Made by a program: the position numbers and the translations under genes | Source of the DNA: an uncultured Acidimicrobiales bacterium | GTDB lineage: Bacteria; Actinomycetota; Acidimicrobiia; Acidimicrobiales; SHLQ01 | Reading direction: 5' to 3' | Length of the DNA: 38,752 nucleotides | Assembly: GCA_938002955.1 (NCBI GenBank) | Contig: CALLAA010000203.1 | Span: 1 to 38,752 of the forward strand | Notes under the pieces: model-generated | Seen by the model: only the letters and a program-made list of their open reading frames with translations | What the model was told of the DNA's origin: nothing | The model's database searches: none | Shown here: positions 1,782-8,699 of the stretch, in pieces | How the letters are laid out: every line of letters starts with the position of its first letter | Position numbering within the stretch: position 1 is the stretch's first letter

Positions 1782-2072
1782 ATGCCAGCCGTGGATGACG
1801 ACCAAGTACTTCGTGAATGCCGAGACAGCATCGACAACATCGATGCGGCCCTGATCCACCTACTGGCCGAACGTTTCAAGATCACCAAGCGGGTTGGCGA
1901 GCACAAAGCAAAGGTCGGCTTTGCACCTGCAGACCCAGATCGCGAAGCCGTACAAATCGCCAGACTGCGGTCCCTGGCTGACAACGCCGGACTCGACCCG
2001 ACGTTCAGCGAGAAGTTCCTGCGGTTCATCGTGGACGAAGTCATTCGCCACCACAATCAACACAAGGCGTAA
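1782..2072 (+). CDS. Chorismate mutase, AroQ class
   Basis: 96 residues, the usual size of a stand-alone AroQ-type (all-helical) chorismate mutase. The family pattern is visible: R..ID.ID..L..LLAERF in helix 1, then K..VGEHKAK and a PDRE motif, and a long C-terminal helix. The enzyme converts chorismate to prephenate in phenylalanine and tyrosine synthesis, in the cytoplasm as a dimer. No signal peptide is seen. The ATG at 1782 lies just after the inverted repeat; a GTG three codons in (1791) is a possible alternative start. It is transcribed away from the moaB-like gene. The next gene (lipoprotein, same strand) is 41 bases downstream but functionally unrelated. Related helical CM_2 domains occur in other enzymes, but none is fused here. 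Confidence 0.88.
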   Translation: MPAVDDDQVLRECRDSIDNIDAALIHLLAERFKITKRVGEHKAKVGFAPADPDREAVQIARLRSLADNAGLDPTFSEKFLRFIVDEVIRHHNQHKA

Positions 2073-2113: not shown

Positions 2114-4309
2114 GTGCGCACACCCCACCGCTTGGCCTCGATTGTGGTGGCTTCTTCACTGCTCGCTGCAGCGTGCACCTCAAGTTCGGGGCCTGACGCG
2201 CTTGCGTTCGAGAGCGCAACGTCGACCGTACCGGCGGCCAGCGCTCAACCCCTGACCGCACGCAACGCCATCGAGGTTCCATCAGTTCCGTTGAGAGCAG
2301 CTGCACTAACGGTCGACGGCGACCGTTTCGCCCTCGAGACGCCCGCTGGGACCCACGACTTCCTGAACGGCATCAACCTTGGAGCGACGGTCCCGGGGCA
2401 TCAGCCGGGCGAACTTGCACCTACCGCCGACGACATTGGACGTTGGCTTGCCGAAATCTCCGAGTTCGGATTCGACGTGATCCGGGTCTACACCATTCAG
2501 CAGCCGCATTTCTACGACGAGCTGCTCGCCTTCAACGAGGCCAACCCAGAATCCCCGCTCTACGTCATGCACGGGGTCTGGATACCCGAGGCCGACTTCT
2601 TCGCAACCGAAGACCTCTTCGCTGACGCTGTGCGCAACGCAATGCGAGACGAGATCGGCGATGCAGTTGCCGCTGTCCATGGCGATGTCGAACTTCCGGA
2701 GCGACGAGGACATGCCTCGGGACTATTCACGAGCGATGTCAGCGACTGGCTTGCTGGATGGATCCTCGGCGTCGAGATGGACCCTCTGACGACCCACACC
2801 TCGAACCTGTCGAACGCCGGTCGATCGGCATACAGTGGCACGTTTTTCTCGTCGTCGGCGGACGCGAATCCGACCGAGGTGTGGTTCGCAGAGATGCTCG
2901 ATGTACTCGCGACCGAGATGGATAACCGACACCTGCACGTTCCGGTCGCATTCACGAACTGGCCGACGACCGACCCACTCGTCCACCCCGACGAGCCCGT
3001 CGAGAGCGAGGACCTGGTCCAGCTCGATGCGAACCAAGTCCAGCCCACGAGCTTGTGGGAAGGCGGCTATTTCGCGAGCTATCACGCCTATCCGTACTAT
3101 CCCGACTTCCAACGTTACGAAGCGGGAATCGTCGACTACGTCGCCGCAAATGGCGAGGTCGATAGCTACGCCGGTTACCTACACAAGCTTCGTTCACACC
3201 ACGAGACCATGCCGGTGCTCATCTCAGAGTTTGGTGTTCCGAGCGGCTCGGCGCATGCCCACGCCGGTCCCCAAGACCGCAATCAGGGCGATTTCAGCGA
3301 GCAGGAGCAAGGTGAGGTTAACGCCGACCTCCTGCGTGTGATCCATGACGAAGGCCTCGCCGGAGCGATGCTCTTTGAGTGGACCGACGAGTGGTTCAAG
3401 TTCACCTGGAACACCTCCGAGCTCGAACTGCCCGCTGAGCGTCGAGGCATGTGGACGAGCCCGTGGACGAACGAAGCGCATTTTGGCTTGGTAGCCGTCG
3501 AACCGGGTCTCGCTCCCCCGGTCCTGATCGATGGTGACCCAGCGGAGTGGGCTGCGAACGAGTCTCAGTACATTGCGGAGGCACCAGAGGGTGTCTATTC
3601 CGTGCAGGCCGTCAAAGACGAGGCCTACCTGTATCTGAACCTGACGTTGGAGGAGTCCTTCGGCGACGATGACACCTTGATCATCGGGGTCGATGTGTTG
3701 GCCGAAGATGGTGGCGGGCTTCCCGGAACTGACGGCGCTGCACCGAACGCCGACTACGCGATCGTCCTCGAAGGCCCAACGACCGGAACGGCACTCGTCG
3801 CCTCCTACAACAACCCGACTCGAATACTCGCTGGCACACGAGGCTGGATCGACGACTGGAGCGCGGGCGAACTCGCCCCCGGCCAATCGCTGTGGCATAC
3901 CCAACAGCTCATCACGAACCGACCCCTCGTCGTCCCAACAACCGGGCAACAGATGCCGATTGAGCTGATCGAGCCAGGCCGGCTGCTCGCTGGCACTTCG
4001 GACCCAGCGAACCCGGACTTCGATGCCCGCACTACCTTCGCCGTCAACGGAACCACGATCGAGATCCGGCTTCCGTACACGATGATCGGCCTCGCCGACC
4101 CGTCATCTCTACAGGCCTACCGTATTGGTGACGACGGGTCGGCATCGACCAGGCCGATCGAGCGCATTGGACTGGACGTGGTTATCAACAACCTCACCAT
4201 TCCAACCAACGGCTATGCGTGGGACCCGTGGCAATCGGTCACATGGCACGAGCGCCTCAAGGTGGGCGCCGAGCGCTATGCCGAGGCCATGGCGGCCACC
4301 GAGCAGTAG
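2114..4309 (+). CDS. Secreted lipoprotein with glycosidase-like barrel and CBM9/DOMON-like domain
   Basis: 731 residues from a GTG start. A short charged N-terminus and a hydrophobic segment end in LAAAC, so Cys21 is the likely lipidated residue and the protein probably sits on the outer face of the membrane. Residues about 65-460 resemble clan GH-A glycoside hydrolases: FLNGINLG near the start, a possible acid/base Glu221 in GVEMD, the aromatic YHAYPYYP at 323-330, a possible nucleophile Glu372 in ISEFG, and an FEWTDEW strand. Residues about 468-720 begin LIDGDPAEW and contain a DEAYLYLNL strand, typical of CBM9/DOMON-like sugar-binding sandwiches. The gene is convergent with the glycosyltransferase operon, with 12 bases between them, suggesting action on the same polysaccharide. 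The glycoside hydrolase family and substrate cannot be assigned by eye, and hydrolytic activity is inferred. Confidence 0.72.
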   Translation: MRTPHRLASIVVASSLLAAACTSSSGPDALAFESATSTVPAASAQPLTARNAIEVPSVPLRAAALTVDGDRFALETPAGTHDFLNGINLGATVPGHQPGELAPTADDIGRWLAEISEFGFDVIRVYTIQQPHFYDELLAFNEANPESPLYVMHGVWIPEADFFATEDLFADAVRNAMRDEIGDAVAAVHGDVELPERRGHASGLFTSDVSDWLAGWILGVEMDPLTTHTSNLSNAGRSAYSGTFFSSSADANPTEVWFAEMLDVLATEMDNRHLHVPVAFTNWPTTDPLVHPDEPVESEDLVQLDANQVQPTSLWEGGYFASYHAYPYYPDFQRYEAGIVDYVAANGEVDSYAGYLHKLRSHHETMPVLISEFGVPSGSAHAHAGPQDRNQGDFSEQEQGEVNADLLRVIHDEGLAGAMLFEWTDEWFKFTWNTSELELPAERRGMWTSPWTNEAHFGLVAVEPGLAPPVLIDGDPAEWAANESQYIAEAPEGVYSVQAVKDEAYLYLNLTLEESFGDDDTLIIGVDVLAEDGGGLPGTDGAAPNADYAIVLEGPTTGTALVASYNNPTRILAGTRGWIDDWSAGELAPGQSLWHTQQLITNRPLVVPTTGQQMPIELIEPGRLLAGTSDPANPDFDARTTFAVNGTTIEIRLPYTMIGLADPSSLQAYRIGDDGSASTRPIERIGLDVVINNLTIPTNGYAWDPWQSVTWHERLKVGAERYAEAMAATEQ

Positions 4310-4321
4310 GTCGACATCGGG

Positions 4322-5716
4322 TTAGGTCGTCGTGAGACCCTTGCGCTCCTGGACGCCCCAGTTATGGTCGCCTCGAATGAACAGCCAGACACCCCACATG
4401 CGCCACACCAACGTTGCGGGGCGCATAACGAACATCTCGTAGATAACGAAACCGACCATGCGGATTCGGGACATGAAGCCGCTGTGCGTTTGATACACCA
4501 TGTCGCTCAGCGCCAGAATGCCAGCTGTTCGAGCAACGCCAAAGGCATAGGCGGCAGCGAGGATCCCGAGCTGGGTGTGCCCGATGTTCCCGGTGGCGAC
4601 ACCGACGGCGACGAGGATTAAACCCAACGCTTCGACGAATGGAGCGATCGCTTCGACCAGCAGGAAGTACGGGATTGCGACCATGCCCGCCGAGCCGTAC
4701 TTCGGGTTGAACCACATGCGGCGGTGACGGACGAGCACATCGAGCAATCCGCGGAACCATCGGTTTCGTTGCCGAGCCAGCGTTCGCCAGGACGCGGGTG
4801 CCTCGGTCCAGGCAATCGGGTTCGGCGCAAACACGACCCGAGCGAATCGCCCATCTTCATAGGCATGTCGGCGCAGGCGTACGACGAGCTCCATGTCCTC
4901 GCCGATCGACGCCCGGTTATAGCCATCGATGTCGAGCATGGCTTGGCGATCGAACAATCCAAAGGCGCCGCTAATGACGAGCGCACCACCGAGCGGATTC
5001 CAACCGAGTCGCCCGACGAGAAATGCGCGGACGTACTCGACGACCTGAGCGCCGAGCATGAAACTCTTTGGAGCCGAGTCGAGCTGCTTTTCGTCGTCGG
5101 GCACCCGGCCGTCGACAAGACGAATGGTTCCACCCACGGCGACGGTGTCCTGTTGAGCCAAGAACGGCTCGACCAGCTGCTGCAACGCATCGGCGCTCAC
5201 GATGGTGTCGGCGTCGATCGCACACACAAGTTCTCCCGACGCAATATTTAGGCCGACGTTCAACGCGTCGGCCTTGCCACCGTTGTCCTTATCGACGACC
5301 ACGAGATTGGGCTCGAGTCTTGATCGTTGAATCGAACGGACGTGGGAGGTTTCGAGGCGCCGCTGGTAAATGGGCAGAATGTGGGTCAGCTGGAACGTTT
5401 CTTCGAGCTGCTCCATCGTGCCATCGGAGGAACCATCGTTGATCACGATTACTTCGAGGTCCGGATACCGCAGCGCCAAGGTACGGGCGACCGACGTAGA
5501 GATCCACACCTCCTCGTTGTAAGCGGGCATCAGCACGCTGATCTTGGGCACGAGCGGCGATGCGATCACGCGTCGCCACATCTGATGCTGGTTTCGGAGC
5601 CGGTTGCGGCGCATCTCGACGACGGCGAACAGGTACAGGACTACCTCGAACAGAATCGATCCAAAGACGACCACGGCAAGAGCGATCGGCAAAATCGAGA
5701 AGAAGCCCCCCATCAT
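4322..5716 (-). CDS. Processive family 2 glycosyltransferase, membrane protein
   Basis: 464 residues. An N-terminal membrane segment (about 7-33) is followed by a cytoplasmic GT-A domain: MPAYNEE at 63-69, the INDGSSDGT nucleotide-binding loop, NGGKADALN at 145-153, DAD at 168-170, GED at 272-274 and QRNRW (the Q..RW motif) at 316-320. Two or more C-terminal membrane helices follow (about 345-430). This is the layout of polymerising synthases such as PgaC, hyaluronan synthase and BcsA, which extend a polysaccharide and move it across the membrane. All catalytic motifs are intact; the sugar is not predictable. The start ATG overlaps the stop of the HEAT-repeat gene by 4 bases (5713-5716), so it is the last gene of a coupled three-gene operon. 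There is no PilZ domain. Confidence 0.9.
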   Translation of the reverse strand: MMGGFFSILPIALAVVVFGSILFEVVLYLFAVVEMRRNRLRNQHQMWRRVIASPLVPKISVLMPAYNEEVWISTSVARTLALRYPDLEVIVINDGSSDGTMEQLEETFQLTHILPIYQRRLETSHVRSIQRSRLEPNLVVVDKDNGGKADALNVGLNIASGELVCAIDADTIVSADALQQLVEPFLAQQDTVAVGGTIRLVDGRVPDDEKQLDSAPKSFMLGAQVVEYVRAFLVGRLGWNPLGGALVISGAFGLFDRQAMLDIDGYNRASIGEDMELVVRLRRHAYEDGRFARVVFAPNPIAWTEAPASWRTLARQRNRWFRGLLDVLVRHRRMWFNPKYGSAGMVAIPYFLLVEAIAPFVEALGLILVAVGVATGNIGHTQLGILAAAYAFGVARTAGILALSDMVYQTHSGFMSRIRMVGFVIYEMFVMRPATLVWRMWGVWLFIRGDHNWGVQERKGLTTT

Positions 5717-6801
5717 GCTGCACCGACCCAGTCGGTTAACGAGTCGAGTTCGATGGCTGCCGGTCGAAGCTCAGCGGCGTCGACCCGACCGTCCATAACC
5801 AACCCGTCGAGCACTTGCTGGGCCATATCGCGGGCGAAGGCATCATCGCCTTCGAGCGTGTTTCGCAGAACGAGCAGACCAATTGCGCCCAGTTGGGCGA
5901 GGCAGATTCCGGCAGCACGCCGGACCTCATAGGAACGGTCGCGAAGTGCTGCACCGATTCGACCAGCGAGCCATTCGGCTTGCACTCGAGCAACGGCCTC
6001 GACTGCTGCGACCCGAACGAGTGGTTCCTCATCGCTCAACAACGCCACGAAGAACGCGAACTCATATTCGGCGACACCGAACGGCGTTGCCTGTGCGACG
6101 AGTTGGCGTACCTGAGGGTCCTCGGATTCTGCGTGGACCTTGACCGCTTCGAGGAGCCGAGGGTCGCCCAGGTTCGAGGCAACCTCGAGACCGCGGACAA
6201 TCAGTTCGGGAGCCAAGTTCGGAAGGGCCTCTCGCACAGGCTCGACCAAGCGTCCATCACCGCGCAGGAGCGCCTGCTGTGCGACGAAGCGCACCGACAT
6301 GCTGCGATCCTCGAGCGCTTCGAAAAGTTCCGGCGCGAAGCGCGTGATCTGATCGACACCAAACGACTCGATCGTGGCGGCCCGAACCGATGAGCTCGAG
6401 TCGCAGAGCAGCTTCTCCATGAGTTCCTCGCCATTTGGCACGATGTGCGCAAGGCGGCTGGCAATCACTCGCCGAGGCCAGAACCGGCTTCGAGCGAGGC
6501 GCTTTACCTTGCGGCGGGCGGCGGTATTCCCGATGACATCGAGGAGGCGACGCGACAGTTGGTCGTCGAAGTGCAACGGGATATGCATGGCGATCGAAAA
6601 CAGGACGCGATTCGAAATCGCCTGCAGCTCGTTGAGCAGCGGACCAAGGCTCGCGTGGTCTGCGTAGAGCGCCTTCGAGAGAATCTTCATGGCTCGGCTC
6701 TCGTGGCGCTTACGGCGATTCTCGAGGACATCGATGAGCGTTCCCACGCACACATACAGCACCAGCGAGGACGCGATGATCAGCAGTGACCATCTGATCA
6801 T
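5713..6801 (-). CDS. Membrane-anchored HEAT-repeat protein
   Basis: 362 residues. Residues 3-25 form one hydrophobic membrane segment, followed by a basic stretch (ENRRKRHESR) that predicts a cytoplasmic body. From about residue 40 to the end the sequence is helical pairs of HEAT type, for example SSSVRAATIESFG, RSMSVRFVAQQAL, DPQVRQLVAQAT, EPLVRVAAVEAVA and RSYEVRRAAGICLA, each about 30-40 residues apart. HEAT solenoids are protein-binding scaffolds and no enzyme motif is seen. The gene overlaps both neighbours by 4 bases (6798-6801 with the signalling protein, 5713-5716 with the glycosyltransferase). The likely role, inferred from this position, is to connect the signalling protein to the membrane synthase. 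Confidence 0.82.
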   Translation of the reverse strand: MIRWSLLIIASSLVLYVCVGTLIDVLENRRKRHESRAMKILSKALYADHASLGPLLNELQAISNRVLFSIAMHIPLHFDDQLSRRLLDVIGNTAARRKVKRLARSRFWPRRVIASRLAHIVPNGEELMEKLLCDSSSSVRAATIESFGVDQITRFAPELFEALEDRSMSVRFVAQQALLRGDGRLVEPVREALPNLAPELIVRGLEVASNLGDPRLLEAVKVHAESEDPQVRQLVAQATPFGVAEYEFAFFVALLSDEEPLVRVAAVEAVARVQAEWLAGRIGAALRDRSYEVRRAAGICLAQLGAIGLLVLRNTLEGDDAFARDMAQQVLDGLVMDGRVDAAELRPAAIELDSLTDWVGAA

Positions 6802-8699
6802 GGGGCCGCCAAGATGTTGGCGAGGCGGTTGCTGAGAACAACGGCGCTGAACGGCTTGGGAATCACGTCGGCGGCACCGAGCTCGAAGGCCTCTCGTAGC
6901 TCACCATCACGGATCCGCGAGCACGTAACGACGACCTTCATCTTGCCGAGGACCTGTTGACGTGCGAGGGAACGCAGCACCATAAGCCCGTCGGCTCCCA
7001 TGGCGTCCAGTTCGAGTAGCAGCAACCGTGGGGTCGGAAGCGGATCGATGCCGGTGAGGGCATTGATTGCATCGGACCCGGTCATGACATGGCGACTGGT
7101 TAGGCCCATTCGATCGAGAAGTTGGCCGAGCACCGTGGAGAGCGTGAGGTCGGACTCAACGAGCATGACGTCGACTCGACCTGAACCGGCGTCCATCCAG
7201 TCACTCGAAACGACCGGTGGACCATTGGTCTCCATGCTCTTCTTCATCAGTCGCTGCGCTCCATCGAGCAGGTTCCCGAGGCCGAGTCCCTCGCTTGGAA
7301 ATTCGACCACGGCAGCGCGACCAGGGGTGTGTGCGAGCTGCAGCCGCTGCACTGCTTTTTGAATGCGTGTGGTGGCAGCGGCGCGAGGAGCACCCTTGAG
7401 TAGGACGATGAGCTGCCCGTCAGCGGTTTCACCGATCAGGTCGTCGGTACGAAACTCGGTGGCGAGCCCCTCGTATAGCGCGGCCTTGCCGTCCTCGGTC
7501 AGTTCCGACTTGTCGATAAGCGCCAGCGACGCCACGCTGCTCGAACGGCCGAGCGCCGAGAGGGTGCGATCGAACAGCACTGCGGCGAGCGACCAGGGTT
7601 GAACGGTTGCGGTGAGAACCGGCGCGAATTCGGCCGTGTTGCGACGGTGGGTGAGCATGCCACGCAGGTGCAAGGCCCAACTGTCTGGATCATCGAAATC
7701 ATCGATCAGGAGGTCGGCTCCGAGCCGCCGGCATCGGGCCCGTTCGTTCGGGTCGACGGTAGCGACAGCGATAAGAACGTGCCGGGTTGCGGGCGTTGCT
7801 CGGACCAGCGAAACCACCGATGACGGGCCGCGAACATCGGGTCCGATGATCAATACCTGCGATGCGGTCGCCATGGTCCGCAATGCGTTGTCGATGTCTT
7901 CGACGATGAGCGCCTCGAAGCTGAATGGCCGGAGGTGCTTGTACAGGTCGTTGGCCCCGAGGAGCACGACACGGTGCAGCCAGTCGGGTTCGGGTTGTGA
8001 GATCGAGAAGATCTCGTCGGCGAGCTGCTTTGCCGGCGCCGAGTGGCAAAGAACCAGGTCGGCGTCGGTGGACACGGCTGCGAGATTTTCGCGCTGTACA
8101 CCGAGATCGTGAATCACGACCCTACGGGTGATTTCGGAACGACGCCCGACAGCGTTGAGCAGTCCCGATGCATCGCGAATGTTGGCCGGCGAATACACCA
8201 CGATGGCTGCGGCATTTTCCGGAGCGCTCATGAATGTCGGCGAGTGCGTCGTCAACGCGCCGCGCTGTTGAAGATGCCACATGACGGCATCGATGTTTGC
8301 GTCGATTGGGCTGACGAGATGGATGTGAAGCGATCCCTGTGGGGCGTCGTTCCAGTCATCTCCCGCAACGCGCAGGACCCGACGCAGCTCCTCAACTCGA
8401 GTGGCGAGGCCCGAGGCGGCACGACTGGAGAGCTTCGGGTCGCTGAACGCTTCTCCGAGCTCTCGCGCAAGACGTCCCGCGACGACGAGGTCCAGCGCGA
8501 ATAGCCATTGGGCCAGTAGCTCGATCTCTCGAGTACAGGAGTCTCTTTCGGCTGGTTGCAGGGGACGTCCCAGTAAAGCCACGACTCCCCGCTCAACAAT
8601 CGCCATTCGCTCTTCGATACGGTCGCTAATGCGCCGCCAAACAGCGTTTGGCTGATTCAGTCCTGACCTCGACCGATCATCCGATTGGATCGTTGCCAC
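6798..8699 (-). CDS. Multi-domain response-regulator-like protein with degenerate GGDEF and Glu-substituted receiver
   Basis: 633 residues from a GTG start with a weak ribosome site. Residues about 45-110 look like an HPt-type helical bundle, with Gln64 apparently where the phospho-His would be. Two alpha/beta segments (about 122-235 and 242-350) resemble receivers without an acidic pocket. About 365-490 resembles a GGDEF domain whose signature is lost (ETADGQL in place of R.GGDEF). About 508-630 is a clear receiver, but the phospho-acceptor Asp is Glu563 (LLLLELDAMGADG), while Thr592 and Lys615 of the active site remain. Glu can mimic a phosphorylated Asp, so the receiver may be locked on or work as a binding module. 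First gene of the operon with the HEAT protein and glycosyltransferase. No DNA-binding or membrane domain is seen. The boundaries are by eye; the C-terminal receiver is the firmest part. Confidence 0.78.
   Translation of the reverse strand: MATIQSDDRSRSGLNQPNAVWRRISDRIEERMAIVERGVVALLGRPLQPAERDSCTREIELLAQWLFALDLVVAGRLARELGEAFSDPKLSSRAASGLATRVEELRRVLRVAGDDWNDAPQGSLHIHLVSPIDANIDAVMWHLQQRGALTTHSPTFMSAPENAAAIVVYSPANIRDASGLLNAVGRRSEITRRVVIHDLGVQRENLAAVSTDADLVLCHSAPAKQLADEIFSISQPEPDWLHRVVLLGANDLYKHLRPFSFEALIVEDIDNALRTMATASQVLIIGPDVRGPSSVVSLVRATPATRHVLIAVATVDPNERARCRRLGADLLIDDFDDPDSWALHLRGMLTHRRNTAEFAPVLTATVQPWSLAAVLFDRTLSALGRSSSVASLALIDKSELTEDGKAALYEGLATEFRTDDLIGETADGQLIVLLKGAPRAAATTRIQKAVQRLQLAHTPGRAAVVEFPSEGLGLGNLLDGAQRLMKKSMETNGPPVVSSDWMDAGSGRVDVMLVESDLTLSTVLGQLLDRMGLTSRHVMTGSDAINALTGIDPLPTPRLLLLELDAMGADGLMVLRSLARQQVLGKMKVVVTCSRIRDGELREAFELGAADVIPKPFSAVVLSNRLANILAAP

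Follow-up and report, generated by a model that had tools for sequence, protein, structure and literature searches.

The locus under study occupies positions 2114 to 8699 of the window, the whole stretch of 38,752 nucleotides, and comprises four genes. Three of them form an operon on the minus strand, beginning with a signalling protein of 633 aa (6798..8699) and continuing with a HEAT-repeat membrane protein of 362 aa, the candidate adaptor (5713..6801), and a PgaC/IcaA-like family-2 processive glycosyltransferase of 464 aa without PilZ domain (4322..5716). As a sequence-only reading of this DNA had stated, the three genes overlap by four bases at each junction, and both overlaps (6798-6801 and 5713-5716) are ATGA on the minus strand. 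The fourth gene encodes a secreted GH-A-barrel lipoprotein of 731 aa on the plus strand (2114..4309). It is convergent to the operon, and its stop codon is separated from that of the synthase gene by 12 bases (4310..4321), also as described before. Four-base gene overlaps by themselves are common in bacteria; the above-chance feature of the locus is the cross-phylum conservation of the gene set rather than the overlaps.

The HEAT protein is a near-obligate neighbour of the synthase

The HEAT protein matches the Pfam HEAT family (E 3.5e-17) and has a single hydrophobic segment, a predicted N-terminal transmembrane segment at residues 5-23 (6733..6789, minus strand), which agrees with its earlier description as a one-pass membrane protein. 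Most HEAT homologues, including those of Holophagaceae, Mesorhizobium, Paenibacillus and Salinirubellus, also have this segment. Conserved HEAT repeats lie towards the C-terminus (residues 263-327). Among the sampled genomes the synthase gene lies directly downstream of the HEAT gene in 73 of 76 HEAT loci (29/30, 18/20 and 26/26 in the individual sets). Conversely, HEAT is found upstream of the synthase in 28/30 synthase loci, both exceptions being contig ends. Overall, the pairing breaks down only at contig ends or where the HEAT protein is an unrelated one, and in one case (L066) HEAT protein and synthase are naturally fused in a single ORF. HEAT homologues are thus not regularly found without a glycosyltransferase, and the proposed grouping of the two genes stood. 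The HEAT protein is a near-obligate neighbour of the synthase.

The signalling protein resembles degenerate-GGDEF receptors

Judged from alignment and model, the signalling protein (P0004) is a decayed HPt-REC-REC-GGDEF-REC protein. It aligns over its full length with Pfam-recognised HPt/REC/GGDEF/REC proteins from the equivalent slot, and PleD structures were the top matches in a Foldseek search (E 1.6e-14). The likeness to PleD/WspR-type response regulators lies in the REC-REC-GGDEF fold, whereas the signalling protein lacks the active-site GGDEF and the phospho-Asp and has an extra HPt-like bundle and a C-terminal REC. The N-terminal helical bundle (residues 19-117; 8349..8645, minus strand, as all features of this protein), placed by alignment and model, is HPt-like without the phospho-His; the HPt motif A-H-K-L-A-G of L061 and L117 here reads A-Q-W-L-F-A. 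Model and fold matches place two receiver-like alpha/beta domains behind it (residues 124-234 and 243-345; 7665..8330). These are followed by a degenerate GGDEF domain (residues 369-503; 7191..7595), predicted from the model and a profile match (8e-07, and 1.1e-12 for homologue L022), and by a C-terminal receiver domain (residues 511-631; 6807..7169; Pfam Response_reg 4.8e-09, and model).

In the alignment the GGDEF motif position (7410..7424) reads ADGQL, so the catalytic motif GG(D/E)EF of active diguanylate cyclases is lost. Likewise, the phospho-Asp and acidic pair of phosphorylatable response regulators are replaced in the C-terminal receiver by Glu563 (7011..7013, from the alignment) and E515/S516. 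In 7/7 examined loci of the locus's own family the phospho-site is Glu, and over 60 other modules have Asp there. An RxxD (RTDD, residues 417-420; 7440..7451), a putative c-di-GMP I-site, precedes the lost GGDEF motif by five residues. RxxD is kept in all ten signalling-slot homologues, and the canonical GGDEF motif in none of them.

A lost catalytic motif with RxxD five residues upstream is the sequence pattern of degenerate-GGDEF receptors of the YdaK/PelD type. The Bacillus subtilis ydaJ-N operon is likewise a monoderm synthase-type EPS operon with a degenerate-GGDEF regulator in which RxxD stands five residues ahead of the lost motif, and this RxxD is required for YdaK-driven EPS (PMC5422440). 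Unlike the signalling protein, YdaK is of TM-GGDEF architecture and has no receiver domains. To our knowledge, the ydaJ-N operon has no HEAT adaptor. Since its GGDEF domain retains the RxxD I-site, the signalling protein most likely serves as a c-di-GMP receptor that works in the manner of YdaK/PelD, as far as sequence and analogy indicate. The Asp of RxxD is partly structural in GGDEF domains generally, and its retention is therefore only moderate evidence for c-di-GMP binding.

The upstream slot is variable and usually contains a REC, be it a stand-alone REC, HPt-REC-REC-GGDEF-REC or MshEN-REC. One family has a REC-GGDEF gene with intact GGEEF beside the module, and L095 is a GT-GGDEF fusion. 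No receiver gene was seen within the examined stretch of some modules (e.g. L067, L068, L070, L074 and L215). A synthase without PilZ does not mean that c-di-GMP input is absent, because the degenerate GGDEF of the locus keeps RxxD and GGDEF or MshEN domains are found in or beside the slot elsewhere.

Alternatively, the signalling protein might be a purely structural pseudo-signalling scaffold or a phosphomimetic (Asp to Glu) that receives no ligand input and leaves the synthase permanently active. The HPt His, the GGDEF motif and the phospho-Asp are all lost in the locus's family, and the signalling protein has among its fold matches a structure of PhoB D10A/D53E, a form that is described as constitutively active. 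We regard this explanation as rather unlikely, given that RxxD survives amid diverged neighbouring residues and that c-di-GMP-type domains recur in or beside the slot across unrelated lineages.

The synthase scores below the PgaC/IcaA and CelA model cut-offs

The synthase (P0002) carries the motifs of processive GT2 enzymes, DAD at residues 168-170, ED at 273-274 and QxxRW as QRNRW at 316-320 (4757..4771, minus strand), the key residues of which are conserved in 12 homologues. Together with predicted hydrophobic segments at residues 15-33, 343-374 and 383-401, these are the attributes of a processive GT2 polysaccharide synthase. Pfam gave no match to a PilZ domain in the synthase, so that its earlier assignment to the Q..RW-type processive glycosyltransferases without PilZ holds. 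The best named model is PgaC_IcaA (NCBIfam TIGR03937), at 134.8 bits versus a cut-off of 422.3. Homologues from Holophaga and Mesorhizobium score likewise low (132-146 bits across all three synthases tested). The CelA model gives 63 bits with a cut-off of 699. As these scores fall below the cut-offs, identity as a plain PNAG synthase or a cellulose synthase was rejected, the latter (BcsA) also on the missing PilZ match. BcsA/CelA share the processive GT2 with QxxRW and appear as low-scoring profile and PDB matches, but the locus synthase has no PilZ domain and a BcsB partner was not seen.

It is improbable that the locus represents a Pga/Ica system for poly-N-acetylglucosamine whose accessory set has diverged. 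The poly-beta-1,6-GlcNAc synthases PgaC and IcaA are the closest named synthase family. Moreover, Holophagaceae modules are accompanied by a polysaccharide deacetylase (gene in L016) and a TPR barrel, and the Halosolutus module by GlmS and a sugar nucleotidyltransferase. On the other hand, all three synthases score far under the cut-off, the region of the window that was read showed neither PgaB, PgaD or IcaB/IcaD-like genes nor a deacetylase gene, and the GH-A fold of the glycosidase is nearest to GH157/GH2. HEAT adaptor, receiver slot and GH-A enzyme belong to the module of the locus and are absent from Pga/Ica.

The lipoprotein is a predicted GH-A glycosidase tied to the synthase

The glycosidase has no family match in Pfam or NCBIfam; its lipobox, read by eye, is LLAAAC. 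Its AlphaFold2 model (pTM 0.83) has GH157 (E 1.4e-11) and GH2 enzymes of clan GH-A as best PDB matches in Foldseek and presents the clan-defining (beta/alpha)8 barrel, in which strands 4 and 7 carry the catalytic Glu. Glu221 (2774..2776, plus strand), the putative acid/base by its position in the GH-A fold, and Glu372 (3227..3229, plus strand), the putative nucleophile on a predicted strand, are invariant in 11 homologues. The strand-4 Glu is without the usual preceding Asn. By its model the glycosidase belongs to clan GH-A. GH157 is a structural match only (about 12% identity, TM-score up to 0.41), and the glycosidase is probably a family separate from GH157 and GH2 within the clan. The lipoprotein with a GH-A-like barrel was correctly anticipated, while the "sugar-binding domain" ascribed to it is, in the model, a beta-rich C-terminal region that has no Pfam name. 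Glycosidase rows from Holophaga contain TPR repeats.

Searches were done with a glycosidase profile built from the catalytic region. In Actinomycetota the glycosidase is confined to synthase-bearing genomes (20/20; Fisher p 2.7e-18). It co-occurs with HEAT in Actinomycetota (p 2.3e-10) and Acidobacteriota (p 6.9e-15), and in 34 of 43 cases from these two phyla (14/20 and 20/23) no more than 6 kb separates it from HEAT. Two single ORFs, L078 and L203, are GT-TM-GH fusions of synthase and glycosidase. Most HEAT/GT modules lack the glycosidase, and only 2 of the 7 trio-bearing loci of the locus's own family have it. That the glycosidase is an unrelated neighbour, a catabolic or cell-wall enzyme beside a unit of three genes only, is very improbable: its opposite strand, its own start and its absence from 5/7 related loci would fit, but the restriction to synthase-bearing genomes, the adjacency in most genomes of two phyla and in Deinococcus, Paenibacillus and Planococcus, and the two fusions argue against it. 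The glycosidase is functionally tied to the synthase, and would presumably act on its polymer.

Functional linkage of the module genes is strongly supported. Chance neighbourhood was rejected because of co-occurrence and gene fusions.

Proposed mechanism

The four-gene system is real and widely conserved in bacteria and archaea, and apparently undescribed. Searches of the open literature brought up no account of a REC-HEAT-GT module; subscription journals were largely outside coverage, so that a missing description does not prove novelty. We consider it reasonably likely that the locus encodes an exopolysaccharide system that depends on a synthase and belongs to a widespread type, apparently not yet described, in which a receiver or c-di-GMP receptor acts on the synthase via a HEAT adaptor and a glycosidase edits the polymer outside. 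The neighbouring signalling protein probably switches on the polymerising enzyme, and the controlled product would be a surface polysaccharide.

By analogy with its family, the GT2 enzyme would work in the cytoplasm, polymerising a sugar nucleotide, and the chain would exit through the synthase's own membrane part. The HEAT protein, anchored by its single N-terminal helix, may sit as a fixed adaptor on the synthase, a contact to which adjacency and fusion point. The protein of the upstream slot, usually a stand-alone phosphorylatable receiver, would pass the signal to the adaptor. At this locus the slot is filled by a multi-domain relative with decayed phosphorylation and cyclase chemistry that has kept the RxxD I-site and may thus respond to c-di-GMP. 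Outside, the GH-A lipoprotein may cut or hold the emerging polymer. The pathway of diderm relatives would be completed by a TPR/YaiO-type outer-membrane barrel, sometimes with a deacetylase. We infer the polymer as well as the control step, which would lead from the signal over the HEAT protein to the synthase.

Most synthase-dependent systems known so far are controlled by c-di-GMP receptors of the PilZ or GGDEF type that form part of the synthase or bind to it. If the proposed mechanism is true, a HEAT adaptor whose receiver partner can be exchanged represents a different wiring, and polysaccharide synthases could receive two-component signals directly rather than by way of transcription. 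Several genes now listed as "hypothetical", those of the glycosidase, the HEAT protein and orphan receivers, would become testable parts of a single pathway. It is also reasonably likely that the modules constitute a distinct, cross-domain class of synthase-dependent polysaccharide machines with an obligate membrane HEAT adaptor that couples interchangeable inputs (phospho-receiver, degenerate-GGDEF or MshEN c-di-GMP receptors) to a PgaC-like synthase and, in part of the class, with a dedicated new GH-A family that processes the product.

Distribution of the module

The HEAT-synthase pair is present in six or more phyla, among them haloarchaea, and a response-regulator receiver gene usually lies a short way upstream. 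The module is not the Actinobacterial oddity for which it might have been taken, as it occurs in Acidobacteriota, Deinococcota, Bacillota, Pseudomonadota and Halobacteria too. Holophagaceae and the "Bacillota" MAG L015 share one phylum sample and therefore add no independent phylum. Cultivable, harmless carriers of the module are Geothrix fermentans DSM 14018 and, for the GH-HEAT-GT form, Deinococcus radiophilus. Since the synthase is present in 48 of 297 sampled Actinomycetota genomes (about a sixth) and the HEAT profile matches 57 of 199 sampled Acidobacteriota (over a quarter), the module may make many uncharacterised environmental biofilm polymers. The gene order RR-HEAT-GT was found in Halobacteria and Alphaproteobacteria, and the order GH-HEAT-GT in Deinococcus, Planococcus and Paenibacillus.

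Gene organisation of the window

All four genes lie where the sequence-only reading had placed them (ORF starts are uncurated): a glycosidase at 2114-4309 (+), a synthase at 4322-5716 (-), a HEAT protein at 5713-6801 (-) and a signalling protein at 6798-8699 (-). The 4-base overlaps claimed for both operon junctions are present as ATGA (5713-5716 and 6798-6801), and the gap to the convergent glycosidase gene is indeed 12 bases (4310-4321). The synthase, of family GT2, carries the motifs DxD, ED and QRNRW and gave no PilZ match, in agreement with the reading of a Q..RW-type enzyme lacking PilZ. The HEAT protein has a single, N-terminal hydrophobic helix, in line with the proposed one-pass topology. 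By eye, a chorismate-mutase-like frame can be made out at 1791-2072 (+), roughly 40 bases ahead of the glycosidase gene.

Pairing of HEAT protein and synthase

The pairing of HEAT protein and synthase is near-obligate. A HEAT-protein profile was run against a sample of limited size, MAGs included: 297 genomes of Actinomycetota and 199 of Acidobacteriota. This neighbourhood search, suggested by the sequence-only reading, revealed the synthase directly downstream in 29 of the best 30 Actinomycetota HEAT loci (the exception stops at a contig edge), in 18 of the next 20 (the other two are partial matches to other HEAT proteins) and in all 26 Acidobacteriota loci. In one group of loci (L043-L045, L047, L048, L052) the adjoining GT2 is more distantly related (131-156 bits). 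In the reverse direction, HEAT was found in 28 of 30 synthase loci, the remaining two being contig ends; three synthase-positive genomes below the HEAT threshold (G097, G101, G107) contained HEAT once their loci were read out. Within the window's family, the trio occurs in 7 of 19 genomes searched, in constant order and with the synthase always adjoining HEAT. At L066:7982-10789 (-) both proteins share one reading frame of 935 codons.

Glycosidase

No Pfam or NCBIfam model matched the glycosidase. Its AlphaFold2 model (pTM 0.83) matches GH157 and GH2 structures, so that the GH-A-like barrel assigned to this lipoprotein is right. The glycosidase belongs to the HEAT/synthase module. Of the 297 Actinomycetota genomes, 20 have homologues: all 20 also have the synthase (p 2.7e-18), and 18 pass the HEAT threshold that was applied (Fisher p 2.3e-10). 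In Acidobacteriota, 23 of the 199 genomes have homologues, each of them together with HEAT (p 6.9e-15); these p-values overstate independence because the genomes share kinship. The glycosidase and HEAT genes are no more than 6 kb apart in 14/20 and 20/23 of these genomes, respectively. In two Actinomycetota families, synthase and glycosidase are joined in one frame (L078:2-3982 (-), L203:1456-4362 (+)) by a hydrophobic helix, an arrangement that puts the glycosidase on the outer side of the membrane. At L076:5653-7146 (-), in a module that also has the glycosidase, the gene before the receiver is weakly GH17-like.

Upstream signalling slot

The position before HEAT is usually occupied by a small stand-alone receiver (REC) with intact phospho-Asp (Asp in >60 modules), and by larger proteins in several lineages. 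These are of HPt-REC-REC-GGDEF-REC type at L061, L062, L073 and L115, with some domains unrecognised in some loci. At L071:9736-12033 (-) four MshEN domains, a domain type known for c-di-GMP binding, are fused to a REC whose phospho-Asp is Glu. A REC-GGDEF gene with intact GGEEF adjoins the module in one Actinomycetota family, and at L095:2670-5615 (-) a single frame of 981 codons joins a synthase of the module's protein family to a GGDEF domain at its C-terminus, where the motif reads IAGAEF and RxxD is retained.

The signalling protein of the window aligns lengthwise with the HPt-REC-REC-GGDEF-REC type. The predicted structure agrees in domain order, at a low pTM of 0.45 that makes relative domain placement unreliable; the best structural match is PleD. 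In the window's family the domains have decayed while RxxD was retained: the HPt His and GGDEF motif are lost and phospho-Asp is Glu in 7/7 loci, and RxxD survives throughout, five residues ahead of where the GGDEF motif stood, as it does in 10/10 degenerate GGDEFs of this slot. Bacillus subtilis YdaK has RxxD at the same spacing before its degenerate SDERI, and requires it for EPS production (PMC5422440).

Proposed mechanism and relation to known systems

We propose that the slot protein would act on HEAT, and that HEAT, with 11 of its 23 invariant residues within the stretch 263-327, would contact the synthase. Given the retained RxxD, c-di-GMP is the probable ligand of the signalling protein; given the lost motifs, this protein might alternatively be a scaffold without ligand. 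The synthase would extrude a polymer that the glycosidase may trim or hold. By curated cut-offs the synthase counts as neither a PNAG nor a cellulose synthase; in its proposed working the system resembles YdaK-type EPS operons. Among open-licence papers we found no named system of this composition, and within that literature the system provisionally belongs to none, its novelty being provisional likewise.

The module in other phyla

Searching plasmids with the synthase (tblastn) extended the module beyond Actinomycetota and Acidobacteriota. The gene order is response regulator (RR)-HEAT-GT in the haloarchaea Salinirubellus and Halosolutus, HK-RR-RR-YaiO-HEAT-GT-Hpt in Mesorhizobium ciceri, RR-TPR-HEAT-GT in Erythrobacter, TPR-GH-HEAT-GT in Deinococcus radiophilus and GH-HEAT-GT in Planococcus and Paenibacillus. 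Legionella adelaidensis has YaiO-HEAT-GT plus sugar-nucleotide genes. In Emticicia (Bacteroidota), RR, hypothetical protein and GT adjoin a YaiO gene, and the profile recognised no HEAT at this locus. Haloarchaea, Mesorhizobium and Legionella share the 4-base HEAT/GT overlap. The Holophagaceae order is deacetylase, TPR-GH, TPR/barrel, receiver, HEAT, GT; a MAG in the same phylum sample (L015) is titled 'Bacillota bacterium', probably wrongly.

Beside the module lie GlmS and nucleotidyltransferase genes in Halosolutus (L182:8570-11544), and nucleotide sugar dehydrogenase and epimerase genes in Legionella (L184:1865-4066), which may point to different polymers in different hosts. CotH kinase, encoded upstream in Planococcus (L181:687-2813), with polyphosphate-polymerase-type and DUF4956 genes, and in genome G107 (L215:9977-11533), is possibly a second recurring partner. 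The Planococcus plasmid module also adjoins genes annotated as a Qat anti-phage system (L181:9587-13086).
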